Shown here one piece after another: positions 6,903 through 24,811 of a stretch of 33,998 nucleotides of DNA; within the stretch, counting starts at the first letter, position 1; each line of letters starts with the position of its first letter. A program made the position numbers and the translations under genes. Source of the stretch: Coriobacteriales bacterium (GTDB taxonomy: Bacteria; Actinomycetota; Coriobacteriia; Anaerosomatales; JACRBU01). Location of the stretch: NCBI GenBank assembly GCA_016213085.1, contig JACRBU010000101.1, positions 1 to 33,998 of the forward strand, read 5' to 3'. Below the pieces are notes generated by a model. The model had not been told where the DNA came from, searched no databases, and saw only the letters and a list, made by a program, of their open reading frames with translations.

Positions 6903-9900
6903 GTGAGATCCATCAAGTTGGCCCTGGCTGCATGCCTGGGCCTAGCCTTAGCGATGCCATCGGCGGTTCCCGCCGCCACCGCATCGCAGCCGAGGGAGGC
7001 CGTCCGCGGGTCGCACGCCACCTCACGCCGCGCTCCATACAGCGATCTCGCTCGAAAGCGCGACGAGCTCCGCGCCAAGTACCGGCGCACGAAGCCGTCT
7101 CGCCAGTCCCCGCTCATGCCGAAGGACTACGCCGTCGAGCGTCTCGACAAGTGGGTCGTCGAGGTCGCCGAGGGAGAGCGTGCCTCGGCACAGCGCGCTG
7201 TCGCGGCCGTCGGCGGCGACGTGCTTCGCGTCGCTCGTCGCAGCGATCGGATGCTCGTGTCGCTACCCGGTGGCACAGAGCAGCTCGCGGCCTCTCGGCT
7301 GAAGTCGACCGACGCCGTCCTGGACGTGCGCCGCGCCGCGCTCGTTCGCGCGAGCGAGACCCGTTCTGATTCTGTAGGCCGCTCAGGCGTGTCTGCCAGC
7401 GCGGCGCTGACGAGCGATCCGGCGCTGCCGAGGCAGTGGGGCCTCGATCGCATCGGCATGAACTCGGTGTGGCCGATCGAGATAGGCTCGAGCGAGGTCA
7501 CGGTCGCCGTGATCGACACCGGTGTCGACCTGACGCACCCGGATCTGATCGACAACATAGATACCGACAACGACTTCGACTTCGTCAACAACGACACCTC
7601 CGCCCGCGACGACCACGGGCACGGAACGCACGTCGCGGGAACGGTCGCCGCGGCGACCAACGACATCGACGGCGTCGGCGTTGCGCCGGGATGCACGATC
7701 CTCCCCGTGAAGGTCCTCGATTCTCGAGGACGGGGGAGCGATTTCGATGTCGCCGAAGGCATCGTGTGGGCCACCGATCACGGGGCGAGCGTCATCAGCA
7801 TGAGCCTCGGGACCTGGGCCCCTACGCAGGCGCTCGTCGATGCGGTCGAATACGCACAGGCCCGCGACGTGGTGATCGTGGCCGCCGCAGGTAACAGCGG
7901 TTGGTACATGTACGACGATGGCGCGGCGAGTATCGAGTACCCCGGCGCGTTGCCGGGCGTCCTGACGGTGGGGGCCTCCACGCTCAACGACACCGTCGTA
8001 AGTTGGTCGTCAAAGGGACCAGAGCTCGACCTCGTGGCGCCGGGATGCGGCATCCTGTCGAGCAGGCGCGGTGGCGGCATGATGGAGATGACGGGCACGT
8101 CGATGGCGACGCCGTTCGCCGCCGGGGCTGTCGCGCTCGTGCGCTCCGCACACCCCGAATACACCGCTCAGCAGGCCATGAGCGCGCTCACTACGACCGC
8201 CAAGGATGTCGGTCGTGCCGGGCGCGACATCGAGAGCGGCTACGGTCGGCTCAATGTCGCCGCTGCCCTCGGCCAGCCTGGCGGGACGGACAGCGAGCCG
8301 TCCGTCCCCACCGATGATGACATCCGCGGCGTGCCGCTTCCGGCCTCCACGACCACGGGGACCCTCGACATCGACCTCGACAGCGTGGACGTCTACCGTG
8401 TCCATCTCGCTGCCGGACAGAAGCTGAAGGCGAACCTGAGATCGGACCCTGGGACCTCGTACCGCGTGGCTCTCTTCGACCCGACCGTCAAGAGCGTCTA
8501 CTCCGGGTATCCGATCGAGAGCGACTGGTTTGACTACTACTACTACGACAGCTCCGCCTCGATGGAGTACACCGCCCCGCGCGAGGCGGACTTCTACCTT
8601 GCCGCCATCGCTTCACGGGGGAAGGGCGGCTACACGCTGACGTCTTCGGTGACCACGCCCACTCCGTCGGACAACGACTTCCCGGGTGTGCCCCTGACGT
8701 CCTCGCCGATGCGCGGGTCCGTTGACTCGCGTCGGGATGACTCCGACATGTACCGTGTCACGCTCCAGAAGGGCGACCGCCTCGCAGTGAAGCTGATCGG
8801 GCCCAAGCCCAAGCGCGGCGAGGTGTACTTCTACTGCGACCTGTATCCGATGGACGCCTGGTCCTGGTGGGACACCACCGAGGAAGCCGAGTGGTACTGG
8901 TACCCCGGACTGTCCGCCAAGTACGAGAGCTACTTCTCACAAGGATTCCAGTATGTCGCGCCGGAGACGGGCGAGTACTTCCTCAACGTCGGCTCCTACT
9001 GGGGCGCCGGGCCGTACGCGCTGGACTGGCGAATCCTCAACGACGCCGAAGACGACCAGATCCCTGGCATACGCTTGGGCTCGTCGCCGGCGACGGGGAC
9101 CCTGAATGCACCCTTCGACATGGACGACGTCTACAAGATCCACGCCGACGAGGGGCAGCGGATCAACGTCAAGATCCAGACCAAGGGCTGGATGGATTGC
9201 GAGGTCGGCTTGTACGGGGCCAATGCCACCGACATGGATAGCTGGTGGGTGGCCGGGGACTGGCAGATGTTCAGCTACGTCGTGCCAACGGACGGTGCCT
9301 ACTACGTAGACGTGTGGGCACCAGCGGGTTCCGGTTCGTACACCCTGACATGGTCGCTCACCGATCACGAGCCAGCTCGCGTGGAAGCATCCGTCGATAC
9401 CACGAGACCCGCGTACGGAAAGGTGCCGACCATCGACGTGAACCTCACAAGCCAGGAATCGACCGCCCCGGTGGCCGATCAGGTCGTCGCGCTGCAGGAG
9501 TGGTGGTGGGGCTGGGAGACCGTCGAGTCCGCGATGTCCGACTCGGCTGGCCACGTTCGGTTCAAGCCGGAGCTGACCTCGGCAACAGCGTTCCGCGTCG
9601 TGACGACCGACGGGTTCGACGAGGCGGAGATAGGTCCGGACTTCGCGGTGAAGCCCGGGGTGTTCCTGTCTCGCCCGGTCCCGTCGTCCACGGTGACCTC
9701 CGACAAGACCGTGAAGTGGTCGGGCGTCCTGAGGCCACGTCACTACAGGGGCGGCAAGACCGTGAAGCTCCTGTTCTCCAAGCTTGTCAACAACAAGTGG
9801 GAGTTCAGGAAGAGGGTAGTCGCCACGAACGTGGCGAACGTCGGCGCCAGTTCGGCCGGTTCGTCCATCGGTGCGATCAGCGGCACGCGCTACTCCGCTC

Positions 9901-10007
9901 CATACAAGATCCCGTCCCGCGGCAGGTGGCGCGTGGTCGCGATCACCTATGAGGACGAGGACCACCTCGCCGGGCAGTCGAGCGCGACGTACGTGACGGT
10001 GAAGTAG
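6903..10007 (+). CDS. Secreted subtilisin-like protease (S8) with PPC-like repeats and shared C-terminal module
   Basis: The protein is 1034 residues. GTG 6903 follows a GAGAGGGG ribosome site and starts a signal peptide (MRSIKLALAACLGL, Ala-rich cleavage near 26). Residues about 75-155 look like an I9-type propeptide. The catalytic domain spans about 170-455 with Asp205 in VAVIDTGVD, His240 in DDHGHGTHVAG, and Ser400 in GTSMATPFAAG; the oxyanion region AAAGNSG is present. All are intact, so it should be active. Three PPC-like beta domains follow (starting near 470, 590 and 717, each with a D-D/N-x-x-x-G-(V/I) opening). An Ig-like domain begins near 825 and the shared module occupies 919-1034 (LRPRHYRG, GRWRVVAI, final YVTVK). 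It is probably displayed at the cell surface for peptide scavenging or protein processing. It is transcribed after the ars operon but likely independently. Confidence 0.95.
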   Translation: MRSIKLALAACLGLALAMPSAVPAATASQPREAVRGSHATSRRAPYSDLARKRDELRAKYRRTKPSRQSPLMPKDYAVERLDKWVVEVAEGERASAQRAVAAVGGDVLRVARRSDRMLVSLPGGTEQLAASRLKSTDAVLDVRRAALVRASETRSDSVGRSGVSASAALTSDPALPRQWGLDRIGMNSVWPIEIGSSEVTVAVIDTGVDLTHPDLIDNIDTDNDFDFVNNDTSARDDHGHGTHVAGTVAAATNDIDGVGVAPGCTILPVKVLDSRGRGSDFDVAEGIVWATDHGASVISMSLGTWAPTQALVDAVEYAQARDVVIVAAAGNSGWYMYDDGAASIEYPGALPGVLTVGASTLNDTVVSWSSKGPELDLVAPGCGILSSRRGGGMMEMTGTSMATPFAAGAVALVRSAHPEYTAQQAMSALTTTAKDVGRAGRDIESGYGRLNVAAALGQPGGTDSEPSVPTDDDIRGVPLPASTTTGTLDIDLDSVDVYRVHLAAGQKLKANLRSDPGTSYRVALFDPTVKSVYSGYPIESDWFDYYYYDSSASMEYTAPREADFYLAAIASRGKGGYTLTSSVTTPTPSDNDFPGVPLTSSPMRGSVDSRRDDSDMYRVTLQKGDRLAVKLIGPKPKRGEVYFYCDLYPMDAWSWWDTTEEAEWYWYPGLSAKYESYFSQGFQYVAPETGEYFLNVGSYWGAGPYALDWRILNDAEDDQIPGIRLGSSPATGTLNAPFDMDDVYKIHADEGQRINVKIQTKGWMDCEVGLYGANATDMDSWWVAGDWQMFSYVVPTDGAYYVDVWAPAGSGSYTLTWSLTDHEPARVEASVDTTRPAYGKVPTIDVNLTSQESTAPVADQVVALQEWWWGWETVESAMSDSAGHVRFKPELTSATAFRVVTTDGFDEAEIGPDFAVKPGVFLSRPVPSSTVTSDKTVKWSGVLRPRHYRGGKTVKLLFSKLVNNKWEFRKRVVATNVANVGASSAGSSIGAISGTRYSAPYKIPSRGRWRVVAITYEDEDHLAGQSSATYVTVK

Positions 10008-10578: not shown

Positions 10579-10803
10579 TTACGGCCCGGGGGTCGGCGGC
10601 GTCGGCACCGTGCCGATCACGATCTTCACCGTCGAACCCGGTTTGACCGCAGTGCCGGGCGTGGGGCTCACCTCGATGACTTTGCCCTCGTTGGCCGGGG
10701 TGTCGTCGCGAGTCGAGACCTCGAACACGAGCCCGCGGTCCTCGATCTTCTTGCGGGCCGTGGCTTCCGTGTCGCCCATCACGTCCGGGACGCTCACGAG
10801 GAT
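10579..10803 (-). pseudogene. Fourth PASTA domain, cut off from the kinase by an in-frame TAG
   Basis: Reading on past the TAG at 10804-10806 in the same frame gives about 74 more residues up to TAA 10579-10581. They form a complete PASTA domain (SVPDVMGDTEATARKKIED near the start, then PTPGTAVKPGSTVKIVIG) and a short Pro/Thr tail. The register and linker length match the junctions between the first three PASTA domains exactly, so the kinase gene evidently once continued, or still continues, through this codon. Internal GTG 10797 lacks a convincing ribosome site, and a lone cytoplasmic PASTA domain would be unusual. Possible explanations are a recent point nonsense mutation, an assembly error, or stop-codon readthrough. 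Confidence 0.8.
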
Positions 10804-12426
10804 CTAGCCCTTCGACACGACGATCGTGACGGTCTTGCCCTTCACGATGAGGACGCCGGCCGGCGGATTCTGGGAGATGACGACACCCTTGCTCACGGTG
10901 TCCGAGAACTCGGTCGAGATGTCCACGCTGAATCCTGCGTCCTCGAGGATCGCCGTTGCGTTCGACTGGCCCTTGCCCTCGACGTTCGGGACCTCGATGA
11001 GCTGCTGCCCCTTCGAGACGGTCAGCGTGATGCTCGAGCCCTTCGGCTGACTGCTGCCGCCCTCGGGGTCCTGCGAGAGCACGGTGCCCTCAGGTTTGCC
11101 GCTGAACTCGCGTTTCGGCAACGTGAGGGCGAAGCCGGCGTCCTGCAGGATCTGCGCGGCCTCGCTGTCGGTCTTGCCGACGACGTCTGGGACTTCGACC
11201 TTCTCGACGCCCCGGCTGATGACGAGGTTCACCTTCGCGCCCGATTCGACCTGCGTACCCGGGGTGGGGTCTTGCTCGAGTACACGCCCTGCCTCGACGT
11301 TCGCGTCGAACTGCGATCTCGTGGTTCCGATCGCCAAGCCCTCTGCCTTCAGCGCGTCGGCGGCCTGGGCGACGGTCTTACCCCTGAGGTTGGGCACGGA
11401 GATCGAGGGCTCGAAGGCGCCCATGGCCCACGCAGCCGCCAGGCCTCCTGCGAGCAGCGCGAGAACGAGCAGCGTCCAAAGCCACCAGCGGCTCTTCTTC
11501 TTCGGCGGTGCTTGGCGCGCGGCACCGCGGCCGGTTGGAGCGGTGGGCACCGCTGTCATGACCGCCGTCTGGTCCATCTTCGGCACCGTGGCCGCGACGG
11601 GGCGTCCGGCGCTCACGGCGAGCAGGTCGCGGCGCATGGAGTCGGCCGACGCGTAGCGTTGCGCGGGGTCCTTCGCCATCGCTTTGAGGATCACCGTCTC
11701 GAGCGCCACGGGGATGGCGGGGCTCAACTTGCGTGGCGGTACCGGCTGCTCGTTGACCTGCTTGAGAGCTACGGCGACCGGCGTGTCCGCGTCGAACGGC
11801 ATCTTGCCGGTGGCGGCTTCGTAGAGCGAGACGCCGAGCGAGTAGATGTCGCTCGCGGGCGTGAGTTGCTTGCCCTGAGCCTGCTCGGGCGACACGTAGT
11901 GTGCCGTGCCGAGCACCGAGCCGGTCTGCGTCATCGTGGTGTTGCCCGCACGGGCGATGCCGAAGTCCATGACCTTCACCGTGCCGTCGGGCTGCACCAT
12001 GATGTTGTGCGGCTTGACGTCGCGGTGGATGACATCGGCGCGGTGCGCGACTTCGAGCGCGGAAGCGACCTGGGCGCCGATGTCGGCGACCCTTGTGGGG
12101 GCGAGCGGGCCCTCGGCGGCGATGATGTCCTTCAGGTCCTTGCCGTCGACGAACTCCATGACGATGTAGTACGTGTCGCCGGTCTTGCCCCAGTCGTAGA
12201 TGCTGACGATGTTGGGGCTGGAGAGGTTCGCGGCAGCCTGTGCTTCCTGCCGAAAGCGGGCAGCGAACGTCGCGTCCGCGGCAAGCCGCGCATGCAGGAC
12301 CTTGACGGCCACGGTGCGCCCGAGGACATTGTCGACGCCCTTGTAGACGTCGGCCATTCCTCCGGCCCCGATCTTCTCGGTGACCCGATATCGTGAACCG
12401 TAGTCCTTCTCGGTCACTGGCCTCAC
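10804..12426 (-). CDS. pknB: PknB-type Ser/Thr protein kinase with PASTA domains
   Basis: The 540-residue protein has an intracellular kinase domain at about 13-275: glycine loop IGAGGMADVYKG, Lys42 in VAVK, HRD at 134-136 and DFG at 154-156, all intact, with activation loop TMTQTGSVLGTAHYVSPEQ. A cytoplasmic linker leads to a membrane span at about 314-335 (WWLWTLLVLALLAGG). Outside are three PASTA domains at about 341-410, 411-478 and 479-540 (SVPNLRG, EVPDVVG, EVPNVEG). The family senses muropeptides or lipid II and controls wall growth and division. The start is GTG 12426. The gene ends at TAG 10804-10806, just before a fourth in-frame PASTA domain. It is last in the signalling cluster, 104 bases after the SEDS-PBP gene, and may have its own promoter at 12460-12465. 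Confidence 0.93.
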   Translation of the reverse strand: MRPVTEKDYGSRYRVTEKIGAGGMADVYKGVDNVLGRTVAVKVLHARLAADATFAARFRQEAQAAANLSSPNIVSIYDWGKTGDTYYIVMEFVDGKDLKDIIAAEGPLAPTRVADIGAQVASALEVAHRADVIHRDVKPHNIMVQPDGTVKVMDFGIARAGNTTMTQTGSVLGTAHYVSPEQAQGKQLTPASDIYSLGVSLYEAATGKMPFDADTPVAVALKQVNEQPVPPRKLSPAIPVALETVILKAMAKDPAQRYASADSMRRDLLAVSAGRPVAATVPKMDQTAVMTAVPTAPTGRGAARQAPPKKKSRWWLWTLLVLALLAGGLAAAWAMGAFEPSISVPNLRGKTVAQAADALKAEGLAIGTTRSQFDANVEAGRVLEQDPTPGTQVESGAKVNLVISRGVEKVEVPDVVGKTDSEAAQILQDAGFALTLPKREFSGKPEGTVLSQDPEGGSSQPKGSSITLTVSKGQQLIEVPNVEGKGQSNATAILEDAGFSVDISTEFSDTVSKGVVISQNPPAGVLIVKGKTVTIVVSKG

Positions 12427-15311: not shown

Positions 15312-16454
15312 CTAGGGCTGGTTGGGGACGCTCCGCGGATCGGGCACGACCGGCGGGTTGAGCGGCGTGTCGGTCTGGACCTCAGACCGGTACTGCTCGA
15401 TGAGGGCGAGCGCCTCCTCGGCGCTGCCGACACGCAGCGTCTCCTGAATGCGGGCGCCGGTCGCCATCGGCAGTTCCGAGACTTGGATGTCGGTGGTCTC
15501 GAGCGGCCACGAAAGAGTGATGCCCGCGAACGAGCCCGGTACGCCACGGTACGCCACGATGACGCCGTTCTCGGCGGTGAGATACGCCTGCGAGTACGCG
15601 TAGCGGTAGGTCGCATAGCCGATGCCGGCGACGATGAGCGCGAAGGCGAGCAGCCAGCCGAACACCGCGAGCACGGTGCGCCCGGAGGGGAGCGACGCAC
15701 TCTTCTTGGCGGGGGCGACGGAGTTCTTGCCGGGCGTGCCGGAGATGCGGGCGAGCACGACGGAGATGTTGTCGTGGCCACCCGCTGCGTTCGCCGCCTC
15801 GGCGAGAGCCTTGGCCGCGACCTGCAGGTCGTCAGAAGTGCGCGCGACGATCGCCGCGATGTCGGGATCCTCGACCATCCCGGTCAGACCGTCGCTCGCC
15901 AGAAGGAGGATGTCGCCGGGCTCGGCGTCGACCTCGTAGGTATCGGCCACCATGTTCGCGTCGGTGCCGAGCGCTCGCGTGATCACGGAGCGGTTCGGGT
16001 GGTAGCGCGACTCCTCTTCGGTGATCGTCCCTCGCCGAACCATGTCGGCGACCATCGAGTGGTCCTCGGTCAGGCGGCGGATCGTGCCGTCGCGCAGCAG
16101 GTAGGCGCGTGAGTCGCCGACATGCGCGATCGCGATGCGGCTGCCTTCGACGATCGCGGCGGTCATCGTCGTGCCCATGCCTTGGCGGCCGATGCCCTCG
16201 CGCGCGGCGCGGATGACCTCGCGATTCGCGGCGCGCACCGCTCGGGCGAGCGCCTTCGCGTCGGGACGGCGCGGCGCGTGGTCGCGAAGCGTGGCGACGG
16301 CGAGCGAACTCGCTACCTCCCCGGCCTCATGACCGCCGAGGCCGTCAGCGACCACGAACAGCGGAGGCTCGGCGAGAACCGCGTCCTCGTTGTGGTCGCG
16401 AACGCGCCCGATCTCCGAATGCGTCGCGTACCATGTCGCCCCGCGCGGACTCAT
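15312..16454 (-). CDS. pstP: PP2C-family Ser/Thr phosphatase (PstP/Stp)
   Basis: The protein is 380 residues. PP2C motifs run in order: VRDHNEDA, VADGLGGHEAGEVAS, GMGTTM, AHVGDSRAYLL, LLLASDGLTGMV and GGHDNISVVLA. These supply the metal-binding Asp residues of an active phosphatase. A Pro/Ser/Lys linker leads to one membrane span near 265-290 (VFGWLLAFALIVAGIGYA) and a roughly 90-residue extracytoplasmic tail. It dephosphorylates targets of the kinases encoded in the same cluster. ATG 16452-16454 overlaps the fhaB stop as ATGA. The frame stays open far upstream, but that region is fhaB and fhaA in another frame. Confidence 0.94.
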   Translation of the reverse strand: MSPRGATWYATHSEIGRVRDHNEDAVLAEPPLFVVADGLGGHEAGEVASSLAVATLRDHAPRRPDAKALARAVRAANREVIRAAREGIGRQGMGTTMTAAIVEGSRIAIAHVGDSRAYLLRDGTIRRLTEDHSMVADMVRRGTITEEESRYHPNRSVITRALGTDANMVADTYEVDAEPGDILLLASDGLTGMVEDPDIAAIVARTSDDLQVAAKALAEAANAAGGHDNISVVLARISGTPGKNSVAPAKKSASLPSGRTVLAVFGWLLAFALIVAGIGYATYRYAYSQAYLTAENGVIVAYRGVPGSFAGITLSWPLETTDIQVSELPMATGARIQETLRVGSAEEALALIEQYRSEVQTDTPLNPPVVPDPRSVPNQP

Positions 16455-16870
16455 GCCTTCTCCACGCGCAGCTTGACCTTGCCGATGGTGATGACGTCGC
16501 CCGCCTTGATCTTGGTCGGCCCGTACACGCGCTGGGAGCCGAGGACGGTCCCATTGGTGGACTGGAGGTCCTCGAGCGTCGCGCCATCGCCGCCGCTGGG
16601 AGCGACTCGCGCGTGGCTGCCTGAGACGAAGTCGTCGGCGATCACGATGTCCGCGCCGGGCGAGCGGCCGATGACGACCGGGCCGCTGATCGGGACCTTC
16701 GTCCCCTGGATCTCCTTGGGGCCCTGAACCACGGCCAGAGCGAGTCCATGGGAGACCGAAACGCCGCGACCGCGCACGAGCCCGATGCCCGCGCGGATGG
16801 CGGCGAAGAGGAACAGGTAGAGGAGCGCGAGGAGGAGCAGTCTGCCGGCGAGCAGGACGACGTCGACCAT
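16451..16870 (-). CDS. fhaB: FHA-domain membrane protein FhaB
   Basis: The 139-residue protein has one N-terminal membrane helix (about 4-26, LLAGRLLLLALLYLFLFAA) and a C-terminal forkhead-associated domain (about 60-139). The phosphothreonine-binding signatures VIGRSPGADIVI, SGSHARV, and DLQSTNGTVLG are present. FhaB proteins are phosphorylated by PknB-type kinases and link them to division and wall synthesis. It starts 3 bases after the fhaA stop and overlaps the phosphatase start, so it is translationally coupled on both sides. Confidence 0.93.
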   Translation of the reverse strand: MVDVVLLAGRLLLLALLYLFLFAAIRAGIGLVRGRGVSVSHGLALAVVQGPKEIQGTKVPISGPVVIGRSPGADIVIADDFVSGSHARVAPSGGDGATLEDLQSTNGTVLGSQRVYGPTKIKAGDVITIGKVKLRVEKA

Positions 16871-16873
16871 GCG

Positions 16874-17935
16874 CTACGCCTCCGGCCCGTGATACACGAG
16901 CTCGGTGACGCCGACGGTCACGACGTCGCCGTCCTTGAGGGGTATGCGGCGGTCGACCTGCTGTCCGTTCAGCCACGTGCCGTTCGTCGAGTCGAGGTCC
17001 TCGATGGCCCAGCCGCTCGCGACAGGGACGAAGGCCGCGTGCGTACGCGACGAGTTGGCGTCCTGCAGGGCGATGTCGCAACTCGCAAGGCGCCCCACGG
17101 TGACGCGGTCCCCACGCAAAACGACGTCGTGCTCGATACCCGTGACCGTCACGGTCGCGATCGCACCGCCGGGTGTCGCGCCGAGAACGGTCGTCACCTG
17201 GTCGGCGGGGCCGGGAGGCGCGGGCGTCGGTTCGGAATCGAGACTGAGCTCGGAAGGCTCGAACGGCGCTTCCGCCTCCGCCGCGGGCTCGGAAGGCACG
17301 ACGCCCGGTGCAGGAGGAGCGATCGGCCCGCCCGCTTCGCTCGGCACGAACGGCTCGAAGTCGATGTCCTCGGCTTCCTCGTGGTTGTAGAAGACCGGAC
17401 CTCGAGGCTCGGGCTCGGGGGGCTCCGGCATCGGCTGCGCCTCGGGTTCCGCCGCCTCAGGCTCCACGGGCTCGGGGGCGGAGGGCTCGAAGTCGACGTC
17501 CTCGCGTGGCGTCTGGGGCGCGGCCGGAGAGTGCATCATCTCGGCCGCGATCCGACCGAGTTCCTCGGAGGAGACCAGCTCGGCGTAGGCTTCGAAGCGC
17601 CCCAGCTTCAGGTCGGGATCGACGAGGAATCGCACCATCGGTCGACTCGGGAGCTCGTAGTTGCGCTGCGCCGCGTAGCCGATGAGGTAGGTCGCGAGCT
17701 CGCCGGAGAGCGTGTCCGCGAAGGCGCCCATCTTCTCCTCGTCGGCGGGCGATATGAGCACCGTGTAGAGCGTCGGGGCGTAGATCTTGCCGACGCCCAC
17801 GCTGCGCTCGCGGTCCATCTGCTTCGCGAGCGCTTTGGCGAGCTCGGCGGGCTGCACGGGCGACCGGAAGACGCCGGCGAACACGCCTTCTACGGCGCGA
17901 CCGACGCGATCTTCGAAGTCGGAGAGGAGACTCAA
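16874..17935 (-). CDS. fhaA: FhaA: DUF3662 plus FHA domain protein
   Basis: The 353-residue cytoplasmic protein opens with the DUF3662/FhaA N-terminal domain (about 1-130: SLLSDFEDRVGRAVEGVFAG, then QPAELAKALAKQMD). A long acidic, Pro/Glu-rich linker follows (about 145-255). The C-terminal FHA domain covers about 262-350, with VTVGRLASCDIAL, SSRTHAAF and DLDSTNGTWLNG. The start is TTG 17935 with ribosome site AAGGA that overlaps the kinase stop codon. In mycobacteria FhaA binds phosphorylated MurJ/MviN and slows lipid II flux. A similar role here is inference. Confidence 0.93.
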   Translation of the reverse strand: MSLLSDFEDRVGRAVEGVFAGVFRSPVQPAELAKALAKQMDRERSVGVGKIYAPTLYTVLISPADEEKMGAFADTLSGELATYLIGYAAQRNYELPSRPMVRFLVDPDLKLGRFEAYAELVSSEELGRIAAEMMHSPAAPQTPREDVDFEPSAPEPVEPEAAEPEAQPMPEPPEPEPRGPVFYNHEEAEDIDFEPFVPSEAGGPIAPPAPGVVPSEPAAEAEAPFEPSELSLDSEPTPAPPGPADQVTTVLGATPGGAIATVTVTGIEHDVVLRGDRVTVGRLASCDIALQDANSSRTHAAFVPVASGWAIEDLDSTNGTWLNGQQVDRRIPLKDGDVVTVGVTELVYHGPEA

Positions 17936-17939
17936 GCGG

Positions 17940-19700
17940 CTATCCTTCGTCCAGGCCGGCTGCGCGGAGTTCGTCGGGCTCGGGGCGGACCGGTGCTCCG
18001 AGCATCGCGACCGCGAACATCAGTATAAGAGAGAGGGCCAGAGGCCCGACGAGCGGCAACCATAGCGTTGACGGAGCGTGCGGGAGCCCCTGGGCGAGGC
18101 CCACGAGCAGCGTTCCGCCCGCCAGAACCGCTCCTCCCAGTGCGATACCCACTATCCCGCCGACGCGCGTCGCGTTGCGCGCGGGCCACGAGGCCACCGC
18201 GGCAGCGAGCGCCCAGACGACGGCAAGCAGCCAGGTCGACGGCACGACAGCGACATCGGCAACCGACGCGCCGATGAGACGCGCCGTGTAGCCGCCGGTC
18301 GGAGTCGCGCCAGCGAGCGGCACGATCGTGGCGACGGTCTTGCCGATCCCTTCAGCCGTGAGCGCCCCGACGATCGAGACCGACCATGCCGAGAGAAAGC
18401 CCGAGAGCGCGGCCGCCACCGGTGCGAGCGCGAAACCCGCGATGAGCGGTGCGGCGGGGCCGAGCCACGCCAGGCTGAGCATCGGCGCGGAGAATGGAAC
18501 GACGCTCGCCGCCCACGACCTGCGGGCGAAGAACCACCAGTACGCGATTCCCACGATCGCGAGCACGATGCCCGGCAGCCACGCGCCGGCGGTGATCATG
18601 CCGAGCGCAAGCGCGAGAGCGCCCAGCCCGATGCCGAGCGGCGGAGCGAGCACGCCCGCCAGCCCGACGAGCGCAGCCGCGCCGGCGGCCGGCAGCGGGC
18701 CGACCCAAAACGCCGAGATGCCGAAGAACGCGAGCGCAGCGGCCTCGACGCCAGCAACGGCGCGCACGGCCCACAGCCCGATCTGCCCCGCGCGGTCCCA
18801 CAAGCCGAGTCCACGGACCGCGCGATCGATGTCGACGCCCTCATCTGAGGCGAGCGCGTCGGCGACCTCGGCGAGCGATTCGCGGCCTGCGGTAGCGTCG
18901 CCGAGGAAGGGCAGGAGCGCGTCGGCGAACTCGCGTGCAGTCGGCCAGCGGTCCGCGGCAGCGGTGGCCGTCGCGCGTTCGATTGCGTCGTCGACCTCGG
19001 CGGGCACTCGGACGTAGTTGGAAGGGGGCGGCTGCTCGGACTCGAGCCGGTAGATCGCGTCGTCGACGGTCTCCGCGCTCCAGGGATTCGCGTCGGCGAG
19101 CGATTCGTACGCGAGCGCGCCGAGCGCCCAGATGTCCGTCTTCGGTGTCACGCGCCCGCCCTCGAGCTGCTCGACCGGCATGAAGCCGAGCGTCCCGCCC
19201 TCGGCAGGGGAGTGACCGGCCGCGGTCGAGAGCGCCGACACCCCGAAGTCGGCGACCTTCACACGCCCGTCGCGCGCGACCAGGACGTTCTCGGGCTTCA
19301 GATCGAGGTGCACGACGCCGTTCTCGTGCGCGAACGCGATCGCGTCGAACACGGGCCCGAAGACCGCCGCGGCCTCGTCCTCGTCGAGCGGTCCGCCCAT
19401 CTCGTCGAGGACCTCCGCGAGCGACGCTCCGTCGACGTACTCCATGATGAGGAACGCCTCGTCGGCATCGGTGTCGAAGTCGTAGACCGTGACGATGCCG
19501 GAGTGATTGAGCATGGCCGCCGTGCGCGCTTCGGACAGCCCCGGAGCCTCGGCTCGAAGCCCGGGTGTTGGCAGCGGCATCCGCTTGATCGCGACGCGCC
19601 GCTGCATTCGGGTGTCGTACGCGAGCACGACCTCGCCGAACCCTCCGCTCCCCAAGAGCTCGAGTGGCCGGTATCTGCCGAGGATGAGCTGGAGTTCCAC
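17940..19700 (-). CDS. Ser/Thr protein kinase with polytopic membrane C-terminus
   Basis: The 586-residue protein has a kinase domain at about 9-270: glycine loop LGSGGFGEVVLAY, Lys39 in VAIK, Glu57, and DFG at 151-153. The catalytic loop reads HLDLKPEN at 131-138, so the Arg of the usual HRD is Leu. The catalytic Asp and Asn remain, so activity is likely, but the activation-loop contact made by that Arg is lost. The APE-type motif is also altered (GTLGFMPVEQL). From about 305 to 570 there are roughly nine hydrophobic, Ala/Gly-rich segments in place of the usual single span and PASTA domains. The start is GTG 19700 with AAGGGAG 5 bases upstream. It heads the FhaA-FhaB-phosphatase-SEDS/PBP cluster and should feed phosphorylation into it. 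What the membrane part senses is unknown. Confidence 0.9.
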   Translation of the reverse strand: MELQLILGRYRPLELLGSGGFGEVVLAYDTRMQRRVAIKRMPLPTPGLRAEAPGLSEARTAAMLNHSGIVTVYDFDTDADEAFLIMEYVDGASLAEVLDEMGGPLDEDEAAAVFGPVFDAIAFAHENGVVHLDLKPENVLVARDGRVKVADFGVSALSTAAGHSPAEGGTLGFMPVEQLEGGRVTPKTDIWALGALAYESLADANPWSAETVDDAIYRLESEQPPPSNYVRVPAEVDDAIERATATAAADRWPTAREFADALLPFLGDATAGRESLAEVADALASDEGVDIDRAVRGLGLWDRAGQIGLWAVRAVAGVEAAALAFFGISAFWVGPLPAAGAAALVGLAGVLAPPLGIGLGALALALGMITAGAWLPGIVLAIVGIAYWWFFARRSWAASVVPFSAPMLSLAWLGPAAPLIAGFALAPVAAALSGFLSAWSVSIVGALTAEGIGKTVATIVPLAGATPTGGYTARLIGASVADVAVVPSTWLLAVVWALAAAVASWPARNATRVGGIVGIALGGAVLAGGTLLVGLAQGLPHAPSTLWLPLVGPLALSLILMFAVAMLGAPVRPEPDELRAAGLDEG

Positions 19701-20449: not shown

Positions 20450-23400
20450 ATGCACAAGGAGAGATTCAGACTGCTTCGGGGCGTTATGGCGGCGCTGATG
20501 GCACTGGGCATGACGTTCCAGGCGGCGCCGATCATGGCCGCCCCGGGAGATACGATCACGACGCTCGACACGCCTTCCGAGCTGCCGGTCGAGGTCGAGA
20601 CAGAACTCGCACCCGCAGGCTCGCTCAAGCAGGCCCCGCTCTGGAAAGAGCTCGTTCAGATGCTCGAAGACCCGTACGAGCCGGTTGAAAGGCGACCGGG
20701 CTTCGGCAGCACCATGCCGGACTTGAACGTCTGGGAGTTCGAGCGCAACGTCTTCACGGACGAGCCGCTCAGGCTTCGCACGACCGACGGCGAGATCAGC
20801 TGGGACAAGCCCGGCTTCCTGTTCGACCCCGACCAGTATGACGAGGACGGTAGCCCGTCGGCCGATGTCGACACGGTCAACGACCCGAACGCGCCGAATG
20901 TGCCCGACGAATTGCGCACGGTCATCGGCTCGCTCGTCGCAACCGATGCGGTCGTCGAGATCGACGGCGATGATTTCACGATTCCCGATGGCAACCTCGT
21001 CGTCGATAATCCCGACAGCGATCTCCGCATACCGCCGGACGGGACCGTCGTCGCGGTGCCGGCCTACATCAACGGCGCGTTCTACGAGTACGACCCCGAG
21101 ACCGGCGATCGCGAAGAGGTCGCCGAGTTCGAGACCCCCGTCAACGAGGTCGACTTCCTGCGTCCGACGACCGACACGGCGGGCGTCCCCGTGTCGCAGC
21201 AGTCCTACATCGGCCGTCCGGCCGGAGAAGTGCTCGGCAAGGCGCTCTTCTGGGACATGCAGGTCGGCAGCGACAGCGTGCAGGCATGCGGTACGTGCCA
21301 CTTCGCGGCCGGCGCCGACACGCGCACGCAGAACCAGCTCAACCCGAACCACCTTGGCGGAGACTCGACGCTACAAGTGGCTGATCCTAACGGGACTGTC
21401 ACGAACAGCGACTTCCCCTTCCGCAAGCTCGGCGATCCCGAGTTGCCGAGCGAGGGTGACACGGACCAGGACGTGCTTGCGGACTCGAACGACGTCATGT
21501 CCTCGATGGGCGTGCGCTTCCGCGAGTTCGTCGACATTCCGGCTCCCGGGCCGTCCGCGTTCGCCTCTCCTGTCAACGGCGTGCGTCCGCTCAAGCCGGA
21601 CCTCGGCAATGAGGTCGAGGACCCGATCGCCGATGCGTTCGTGGACCCGGACACCGGCGAGAACCTGCGCCGCGTGGAACCGCGCAACACGCCGACCATG
21701 CACTCGGCCGCATTCAACTTCGTGAGCTTCTGGGACGGCCGCGCTCGCCAGGACTTCAACGGCGGTAGCGTCTTCGGCGCCTCCGATCCGGCATTCCACG
21801 TCTTCCACGACCCCGGTGCCGCCGGTGCCGCAGGCGGCCCGCTTCAGGGGCTCGCCGACCCGTCCGATCCCAACGTGCCGACGCGAATCCGCTTCTCGAG
21901 CCTCGGCTCCCAGGCCGTGGGCCCGCCTCTGAGCGACTTCGAGATGTCGTTCGCTGGCCGCAACTGGGCCAAGATCGGCAAGAAGCTCCTTCAGGACCGC
22001 ACCGTGGGAGGCGTCAACTTCAAGGTGACGCCGCTCGCCAACCAGGTCGTCGACCCGAACGACAGCGTGCTCGGGCCGTTCTCCAACCAGCGCTCGTCGG
22101 TCGGCGGTCCCGTGACCAATGCCGGTCGGCCGGGTCTGCTCATCGACTACGACGACCTGATCAAGCTCACGTTCAAGCGGGAGCTCTGGCAGAACACGAG
22201 CGATCACTTCAACGGCGCATCAGCCGCTGACCCGTTCGATGGTTACGAGCTCACGCAGGCTGCGGGAGCGGCGAGCCCGACGAATACGAACCAGTTCTCC
22301 CAGATGGAGGCGAACTTCAGCCTCTTCTTCGGCCTGTCGGTTCAGCTCTACGAGGAACTGCTCATCCCGGACGACAGTCCGTTCGACAAGTTCATGGATG
22401 CCAACCCCGATGCCGCAAATGGCGTCGGACAGCCGGGCGAGCGCGGCACCCTCGATCCGTGGCAGGTCGACAACCTCGTCGGCCCGCTGACGATGATCCC
22501 GGACGATCCGGACACGCCGTGGTACGACGGATTCGGACCCGAGGAGCTCTTCGGCTTCGACATCTTCGCCGGCGCGAACCTGACCGCCGCGCTGCCCGAG
22601 GGCACCACGCGCAACCCGATCCAGACGAACGGTTCGAACGAGACGACGGCGGTCGGCTCCAACCCGTTCCTGCGCACCGCGCGCTGCATGCTGTGCCACC
22701 TCGGCCCGGAGCAGACCGATGCAAGCCTGAACGTCTCCACGGGCTCGCTCTCGAGCAACACCGAGTACGAGTTCCCGACCCCGCCGACGCTGCCTGAGGC
22801 AACCGGCGAGTTCAGAGCTCTCAACCCGATGATGCTCGCCGATGAGTTCGAGGGTAACGCCCCGGACGGCATCGAGGTCGAGCCTCGCGACATGCAGATG
22901 CTCGACGACCCCGGCACACCCTACGACGACCGCATCGTCTCGGTCCCGAGCGCCTTCGCATTCGGCGACCAGGGCATCTACAACATCGGCGTTCGTCCGA
23001 CCGACGAGGACCTCAGCCGCGGCGGTGACGACCCGTTCGGGTGGCCGCTCTCCAACGCTGCGACCGCTCTCAAGAACATCGGCGGGGCCGACTTCGAGCC
23101 CCAGGACACGCCGACCGACCCGACCCCGGGCGCTGGCGATCCGATGCAGAACTTCGATCCGGACCTCGGTACCGGTGGCGGCCTGTTCGAGGAGGTCGGC
23201 GAGGGCTTCGACTTCCCGGGTGCTCCGGGCTACGAGCTCGAGTCGATCAACCCCGGTCTCGAGACCGAGCCGGCCGTCGGTCAGCTGCCCGACTACCTGA
23301 GCCCGTGGGTCCTCCCACTGGGCGGTGGCGAGCTGCACCCCGAGCTCGATGAGCTCCATGCGGCACCGAACACGATCACCGAGGCCAACGGCGGCCCGGC

Positions 23401-24811
23401 CATCGAGTTCCCGGAAATCCTCTTCGGCGCCGATCTTCACTCCGGCACCTACAATCCGGGCCTCTTCGGCACAGGCGCTCCGAACTTCGGTTGGGGACCG
23501 CTGGCTCCCAACTCGCAGTCCGGTGTCCCGAACAACTTCGAAGGTCCTAACCAGGGCACGTGGCCGTTTGCGAACCGTGTCGGGCGCGACGGGGCGTTCA
23601 AGGCTCCGCAGCTCCGCAACGTCGAGCTGACGGGTCCGTACTTCCACACCGGCAGCTACCTGACCCTGCGCCAGGTCGTTGACTTCAACATGCGTGGTGG
23701 CGACTTCCCCGTCACGAACGCGGAGGTTCGCGACCAGCACATGGTCGACATCGACAAGCAGGCGTTCGGCTTCGGTACCACGCGCACGGAGAGCAACGGC
23801 GGTCCGATCCCGGACGTTCCGTTCGCCGACGCGCTGCCTGACGCCGCAACGCAGTATGACGAGATGCCGGACACCAATCACGATCAGACTCCCGAACCTG
23901 CCAATACCACCCCCGAGCAGGCCAAGGAAGCGCTGGTCAAGTTCCTTCTCTCGCTGACGGACTCGCGAGTGAAGTGCGAGAAGGCCCCGTTCGACCGGCC
24001 CGAGATCTTCGTGCCGATCGACGGTTCCGCTCCGGACAACGTGTCCGGCCGCACGGCGCTCCTGGCCGACGCGAGATTCCGGCATCTCCCCGCCGTCGGT
24101 GAGGACGGACGTGCCGAAGATGACTGCCTGCCGAGCTTCCTGAGCGTCTCGCGCACTCCAGTCGCAGGTGACGGCAACGACCACTTCGACTCGGCGTTCG
24201 CGCAGGCTGCGACAACGCTGACGCTCCAGAGCTCGACTCCGATCACCGTCGACTACGGCGTCAACTCCGGCATGTCGGCCAGGCTCACGGACGACAACGG
24301 CGACCCGATCGTCGGCGCGCCCATCACGCTCCAGCGTTCGACCAACGGAACGACGTGGACGAACGTGACCAACCTGACCACGGATGGAAACGGCGTGGCG
24401 TCCTACTTCAGCTTCCTCATGGAGCGCAACATGCGCTTCCGGATGACGTACGCGGGCACGGAGCTGCTGGCTCCGGCCACGTCGGCGACGAGGGTTGTGA
24501 ACTGCAGGGCGTTCGTGACGGTTCCGACGATTCCGGGTTGGAACGGAAGGACGTACCGCTTCAGAGGTGACCTCAAGCCGCGACATACGGCCGGCACGAA
24601 CGTCGTGCGGCTCTATCTCGAACGGTTCCAGGGAGGCCAGTGGGTGACGCGCTCAGTCGTCTGGGCCTCCGCGTCGAACTTCAGCACATACTCCCGCTAC
24701 AGCGGTTCGACTACGCTACCTGCGGGAGGTTCGTGGAGAGTCAAGGCACGTCATACGGACGGCGACCACGCCGACACGTGGACGGGCTACCGCACCTTCA
24801 CGGTGAACTAG
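20450..24811 (+). CDS. Secreted di-heme cytochrome c peroxidase/MauG-like protein with shared C-terminal module
   Basis: The protein is 1453 residues. ATG 20450 follows a GGAGGAGG ribosome site and begins a signal peptide (RFRLLRGVMAALMALGM, cleavage after an Ala-rich site near 31). Two c-type heme motifs are present: CGTCH at 280-284 within LFWDMQVGSDSVQACGTCH, and CMLCH at 746-750. Family context includes NTPTMHSAAFNFVSFWDGRA and, late in the chain, LRNVELTGPYFHTGSY. The hemes are 466 residues apart, much wider than in classical CcpA, so the inter-heme part carries large insertions. Heme attachment outside the membrane implies a cytochrome c maturation system elsewhere. An Ig-like domain starts near 1257 and the shared module covers 1353-1453 (LKPRHTAG, GSWRVKAR, final FTVN). 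Reduction of peroxide, substrate oxidation or extracellular electron transfer are all possible. Confidence 0.92.
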   Translation: MHKERFRLLRGVMAALMALGMTFQAAPIMAAPGDTITTLDTPSELPVEVETELAPAGSLKQAPLWKELVQMLEDPYEPVERRPGFGSTMPDLNVWEFERNVFTDEPLRLRTTDGEISWDKPGFLFDPDQYDEDGSPSADVDTVNDPNAPNVPDELRTVIGSLVATDAVVEIDGDDFTIPDGNLVVDNPDSDLRIPPDGTVVAVPAYINGAFYEYDPETGDREEVAEFETPVNEVDFLRPTTDTAGVPVSQQSYIGRPAGEVLGKALFWDMQVGSDSVQACGTCHFAAGADTRTQNQLNPNHLGGDSTLQVADPNGTVTNSDFPFRKLGDPELPSEGDTDQDVLADSNDVMSSMGVRFREFVDIPAPGPSAFASPVNGVRPLKPDLGNEVEDPIADAFVDPDTGENLRRVEPRNTPTMHSAAFNFVSFWDGRARQDFNGGSVFGASDPAFHVFHDPGAAGAAGGPLQGLADPSDPNVPTRIRFSSLGSQAVGPPLSDFEMSFAGRNWAKIGKKLLQDRTVGGVNFKVTPLANQVVDPNDSVLGPFSNQRSSVGGPVTNAGRPGLLIDYDDLIKLTFKRELWQNTSDHFNGASAADPFDGYELTQAAGAASPTNTNQFSQMEANFSLFFGLSVQLYEELLIPDDSPFDKFMDANPDAANGVGQPGERGTLDPWQVDNLVGPLTMIPDDPDTPWYDGFGPEELFGFDIFAGANLTAALPEGTTRNPIQTNGSNETTAVGSNPFLRTARCMLCHLGPEQTDASLNVSTGSLSSNTEYEFPTPPTLPEATGEFRALNPMMLADEFEGNAPDGIEVEPRDMQMLDDPGTPYDDRIVSVPSAFAFGDQGIYNIGVRPTDEDLSRGGDDPFGWPLSNAATALKNIGGADFEPQDTPTDPTPGAGDPMQNFDPDLGTGGGLFEEVGEGFDFPGAPGYELESINPGLETEPAVGQLPDYLSPWVLPLGGGELHPELDELHAAPNTITEANGGPAIEFPEILFGADLHSGTYNPGLFGTGAPNFGWGPLAPNSQSGVPNNFEGPNQGTWPFANRVGRDGAFKAPQLRNVELTGPYFHTGSYLTLRQVVDFNMRGGDFPVTNAEVRDQHMVDIDKQAFGFGTTRTESNGGPIPDVPFADALPDAATQYDEMPDTNHDQTPEPANTTPEQAKEALVKFLLSLTDSRVKCEKAPFDRPEIFVPIDGSAPDNVSGRTALLADARFRHLPAVGEDGRAEDDCLPSFLSVSRTPVAGDGNDHFDSAFAQAATTLTLQSSTPITVDYGVNSGMSARLTDDNGDPIVGAPITLQRSTNGTTWTNVTNLTTDGNGVASYFSFLMERNMRFRMTYAGTELLAPATSATRVVNCRAFVTVPTIPGWNGRTYRFRGDLKPRHTAGTNVVRLYLERFQGGQWVTRSVVWASASNFSTYSRYSGSTTLPAGGSWRVKARHTDGDHADTWTGYRTFTVN

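Follow-up and report, generated by a model that had tools for sequence, protein, structure and literature searches.

A private amber codon between the third and fourth PASTA domains of a PknB-type kinase frame in a Coriobacteriales genome

The closest described counterparts of the gene analyzed here are PknB of Mycobacterium tuberculosis and its relatives, which are encoded in the pknA-pknB-pbpA-rodA-pstP-fha cluster and consist of a kinase domain, one membrane span and external PASTA domains. The PknB-type frame on contig JACRBU010000101.1 of a Coriobacteriales bacterium, studied in a window of 33,998 nucleotides (the whole stretch of DNA that was analyzed), shares this layout and also its surroundings, because genes for FtsW/RodA, a PBP, a PP2C phosphatase, an FHA protein and a second kinase are all present nearby, as expected for a PknB-type PASTA kinase. 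It differs from the mycobacterial system in that FtsW/RodA and the PBP form one fused protein, and in that the kinase as encoded has three PASTA domains, whereas M. tuberculosis PknB has four. In domain number the truncated product resembles the three-PASTA kinases of Clostridia (Mogibacterium and others). However, the three-PASTA form is ancestral or fixed in Clostridia, whereas in the present gene the stop codon is still followed by an intact fourth domain.

The pknB frame and its orthologues

The coordinates of the frame, its domains and the neighboring genes of the cluster are collected in Table 1. The frame encodes a Hanks-type kinase domain, whose closest solved structure is M. tuberculosis PknB (1mru), and PASTA repeats beyond a single span recognized by eye, which places it among the PknB-type PASTA kinases. 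A sequence-only reading of this DNA had stated that the kinase frame ends at TAG 10804-10806 and that the same frame goes on into a complete PASTA domain, and it was correct in both coordinates and description. From the TAG (10806-10804), 74 codons continue in the same frame to a TAA (10581-10579) with no further stop between, and the PASTA domain that they encode is matched by Pfam with 58.5 bits (E 6.5e-16) over profile positions 1-63 of 64, far beyond chance level. The linkers between domains 1 and 2, 2 and 3, and 3 and 4 each have five residues from VS(K/R)G to VP. The equal linker length noted in the earlier reading is thus real, but its comparison with three other linkers is not, since just two other inter-domain linkers exist.

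Table 1. Features of the pknB frame and of the adjoining cell-wall genes, in positions of the window
Feature	Coordinates	Strand	Details and basis
PknB-type Ser/Thr kinase frame	10804..12426	-	540 aa as encoded, GTG start, TAG end
Protein kinase domain, residues 13-263	11638..12390	-	Pfam PF00069, 184 bits, E 3.9e-54
Putative single transmembrane segment, residues 314-338	11413..11487	-	Hydrophobic stretch WWLWTLLVLALLAGGLAAAWAMGAF, by eye
PASTA domain 1, residues 342-408	11203..11403	-	Pfam and order-specific PASTA profile
PASTA domain 2, residues 409-474	11005..11202	-	Pfam and order-specific PASTA profile
PASTA domain 3, residues 477-540	10807..10998	-	Whole before TAG; Pfam and order-specific profile
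In-frame amber TAG, linker PASTA 3/PASTA 4	10804..10806 (10806-10804)	-	Sense codon in 29/29 orthologues
PASTA domain 4, residues 543-607 of read-through frame	10606..10800	-	Undecayed; Pfam and order-specific profile
TAA where orthologues end	10579..10581 (10581-10579)	-	Orthologue alignment
FtsW/RodA-PBP transpeptidase fusion, 923 aa	12531..15302	-	Upstream gene, same cell-wall cluster
PP2C phosphatase frame, start uncertain	15312..17081	-	Same cell-wall cluster
FhaA-type FHA-domain protein, start uncertain	16874..17935	-	Same cell-wall cluster
Second Ser/Thr kinase	17940..19700	-	Same cell-wall cluster

Forty genomes of the same order, none of them of the same family, were searched for orthologues, and 29 full-length orthologues were aligned. 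All 29 have four PASTA domains and a sense codon in the TAG column, which makes the stop a private feature of this genome. The sense codon predicted by the earlier reading was thus found throughout, its counter-case, a stop shared by every orthologue, is not what the alignment shows (0 of 29), and the shortening from four to three PASTA domains that it described is borne out in the sequence. The residues in the TAG column vary: proline is the commonest, Arg, Ser, Thr, Lys, Ile and Glu also occur, and Gln is found once. Many of the orthologue matches appeared to contain one TAG or TAA, suggesting a conserved in-frame stop. Mapping revealed that these were the normal C-terminal stops of the orthologues, crossed by the end of the alignment, and conserved read-through was rejected for this reason. 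A scan of public genome contigs gave no relative closer than about 54% identity.

The number of PASTA domains differs by lineage. Three domains are present in 75 of the 80 relatives fetched from outside the order, mostly Clostridia, and four in the 29 orthologues inside it. The pknB terminator in this order is usually TAG (26 of 31 frames). A second PASTA kinase with four intact PASTA domains is encoded in the same genome (L002, G000:C170:10908-12674; 38% identical).

The domain beyond the stop had been described as free of visible decay, and this description holds by HMM score, GC3 and identity to orthologues. With a PASTA profile derived from the orthologue sequences, PASTA 4 scores 60-66 bits against 70-79 bits for domains 1-3; in L040, a close orthologue, this domain has 59 bits with the same profile. 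Its GC3 of 0.90 is similar to that of the remainder of pknB. Its mean identity to the orthologues falls ~0.9 SD short of what the rest of the protein predicts, and by a simpler measure, the identity difference, it is the fourth lowest of 30, which is within the normal range. Because PASTA 4 shows no decay, the stop is either recent or a consensus error absent from the cells. Intact relatives combined with an undecayed downstream frame, both observed here, are the features of a recent nonsense lesion.

The reading of TAG in this genome

The assembly consists of 201 contigs, is ~90% complete and encodes RF1, whose score of 527 bits exceeds the cut-off of 423. An Rfam search of this ~90% complete assembly gave 39 tRNA genes, all typed, and none of them has a CUA anticodon. 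In profile searches of the assembly, PylS reached 21.2 bits against a cut-off of 178.15, which one control genome exceeds, and PylC reached 27.5 bits against 248.3. The search for amber-suppressor or pyrrolysine genes suggested by the earlier reading was therefore negative, although missing suppressor machinery is no proof of absence, because the genome is just ~90% complete.

The use of stop codons was analyzed in an internal-stop screen of 797 kb of the 2.19 Mb, which comprised 217 frames conserved with a complete relative and 78,204 aligned residues. A codon-position GC filter served to remove antisense shadow frames, which abound in a genome of such high GC content, and the leftovers were inspected. 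TAG is the stop at the orthologous end in 101 of 195 conserved frames, making it the commonest terminator. In E. coli TAG is rare as a terminator (8%), and the usage in the conserved frames of this genome contrasts with that (PMC11126739). No second clear nonsense codon was found in the ~200 conserved frames screened; the PknB TAG alone sits within clear homology and is followed by an entire domain. The other internal stops, when inspected, belonged to shadow frames (antisense or in another frame), lay 5' of the true start, or were near the frame end. In the L193 match (17832-19064) the stop is 36 residues short of the alignment end.

TAG reassignment is marked by loss of RF1 and by few TAG-ended genes, and neither was observed; general recoding of TAG can for practical purposes be ruled out. 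The features of conserved programmed read-through are likewise missing, as the stop is present in none of the 29 orthologues and the RNA 3' of the TAG shows no stimulatory structure, folding no better than shuffles (z +0.49, +0.61, +0.82). A terminator scan found nothing.

It is very unlikely, then, that this TAG is read through or recoded by a suppressor tRNA, by pyrrolysine or in a programmed manner, yielding a mix of three- and four-PASTA kinases. In favor of such a mechanism, PASTA 4 is in frame and undecayed, the base after the TAG is A and not U, and stressed E. coli can show considerable stop read-through in certain contexts (PMC11126739). However, TAG is less leaky than TGA in E. coli (PMC11126739), and the tRNA set, the PylS and PylC scores far under their cut-offs, the presence of RF1, the routine use of TAG as a terminator, the unstructured downstream RNA and the absence of the stop from all relatives argue against it. 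A leaky TAG that in this species fixes the ratio of three- to four-PASTA PknB, as a translational switch on cell-wall sensing, is highly improbable. A further proposal, translation of PASTA 4 as a separate short protein from GTG 10797, is extremely unlikely. This GTG, three codons past the TAG, does open a frame of 72 aa, but the frame has no signal peptide or transmembrane segment for export and is preceded by no strong Shine-Dalgarno sequence as judged by eye, and such an arrangement was seen in no relative.

Origin of the stop codon

Whichever its origin, a real substitution or an error, the TAG is very probably a private nonsense codon, and the case has the look of a commonplace recent mutation or sequencing slip and not of a new reading of the genetic code. 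It resembles an ordinary premature stop, such as a young pseudogene-type lesion, in being private, in having an undecayed downstream region and in the lack of any recoding apparatus found. It differs from such a lesion in that the last domain alone is lost, while the kinase and three sensor domains are intact. The sequence-only reading had offered a recent change, an assembly error or read-through. The first two remain and are not separable here, whereas the third finds no support in RF1, the tRNA genes, PylS/PylC or TAG use.

We lean slightly towards a real private nonsense substitution that truncates PknB in this genome, because the stop lies in a linker, leaves three PASTA domains intact and produces a form common among the kinases of Clostridia. 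Located in the PASTA 3/PASTA 4 linker, such a substitution would end PknB early: RF1 would terminate at the TAG, giving a membrane kinase with three instead of four external PASTA domains, and the last 74 codons would be an untranslated relic too young for decay. Sensing is predicted to be weaker or altered, and the four-PASTA paralogue may act as a back-up. We infer both that living cells carry this base and that they tolerate a three-domain kinase. A single step can create a stop in this frame by 154 routes; residues 537-543 account for just 3 of them and residues 537-615 for 15. A random error would thus usually strike elsewhere, whereas cells would tolerate a late stop only, and a stop limited to the last domain is better explained by a truncation that is tolerated. 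The intact paralogue in the same genome (G000:C170) also counts for a real truncation. On the other hand, deletion of PASTA4 compromises PknB function in M. tuberculosis (PMC6428115), and for this reason the truncation may not be neutral. The presence of four domains in 29 of 29 orthologues suggests selection to retain the fourth, which counts against a tolerated truncation.

It is possible, though short of probable, that the cells keep a sense codon and make the full four-PASTA PknB, the TAG being a consensus or assembly error. Such an error is fully possible in an assembly of 201 contigs with 90% completeness. The undecayed domain beyond the TAG, the sense codon kept by all relatives and the fragmentation of the genome are consistent with this explanation, as is the finding of a sole clear mid-gene nonsense codon in ~78,000 aligned residues, the rate expected from a few consensus errors per genome. 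However, the site shows by eye no homopolymer or repeat that would favor a slip, a linker is rarely struck at random (3 of 154 routes), and the assembly contains no second, differing copy.

The finding has little significance beyond this genome. If the truncation towards which we lean is real, it would represent a natural change from four to three PASTA domains in a PknB orthologue and would bear on whether bacteria other than mycobacteria can dispense with the last domain, the deletion of which impairs function in the latter (PMC6428115). If the TAG is an error, it is a warning against taking single stops in metagenome assemblies for recoding.

Neighboring genes

The second kinase, FhaA, the PP2C phosphatase, the FtsW/RodA-PBP fusion and PknB constitute a typical actinobacterial cell-wall set. 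The fusion was considered as a possible second lesion, caused by a lost stop between two genes. It has nearly full-length matches in 13 other genomes of the order with 59-68% identity, of which 11 have no internal stop and two have one TGA each, whose position was unchecked. Since the two parts are fused in most genomes of the order that were searched, the fusion is not a second lesion, and judging from these sequences the joining of polymerase and transpeptidase looks like an order-wide trait.

Elsewhere in the window, a 1034-aa secreted subtilase with a PPC domain (6903-10007, + strand) is convergent with pknB. A frame of 1453 aa (20450-24811, + strand) contains two MauG-type di-haem peroxidase stretches together with a weak Ig-like match, and is unusually long for a MauG protein.
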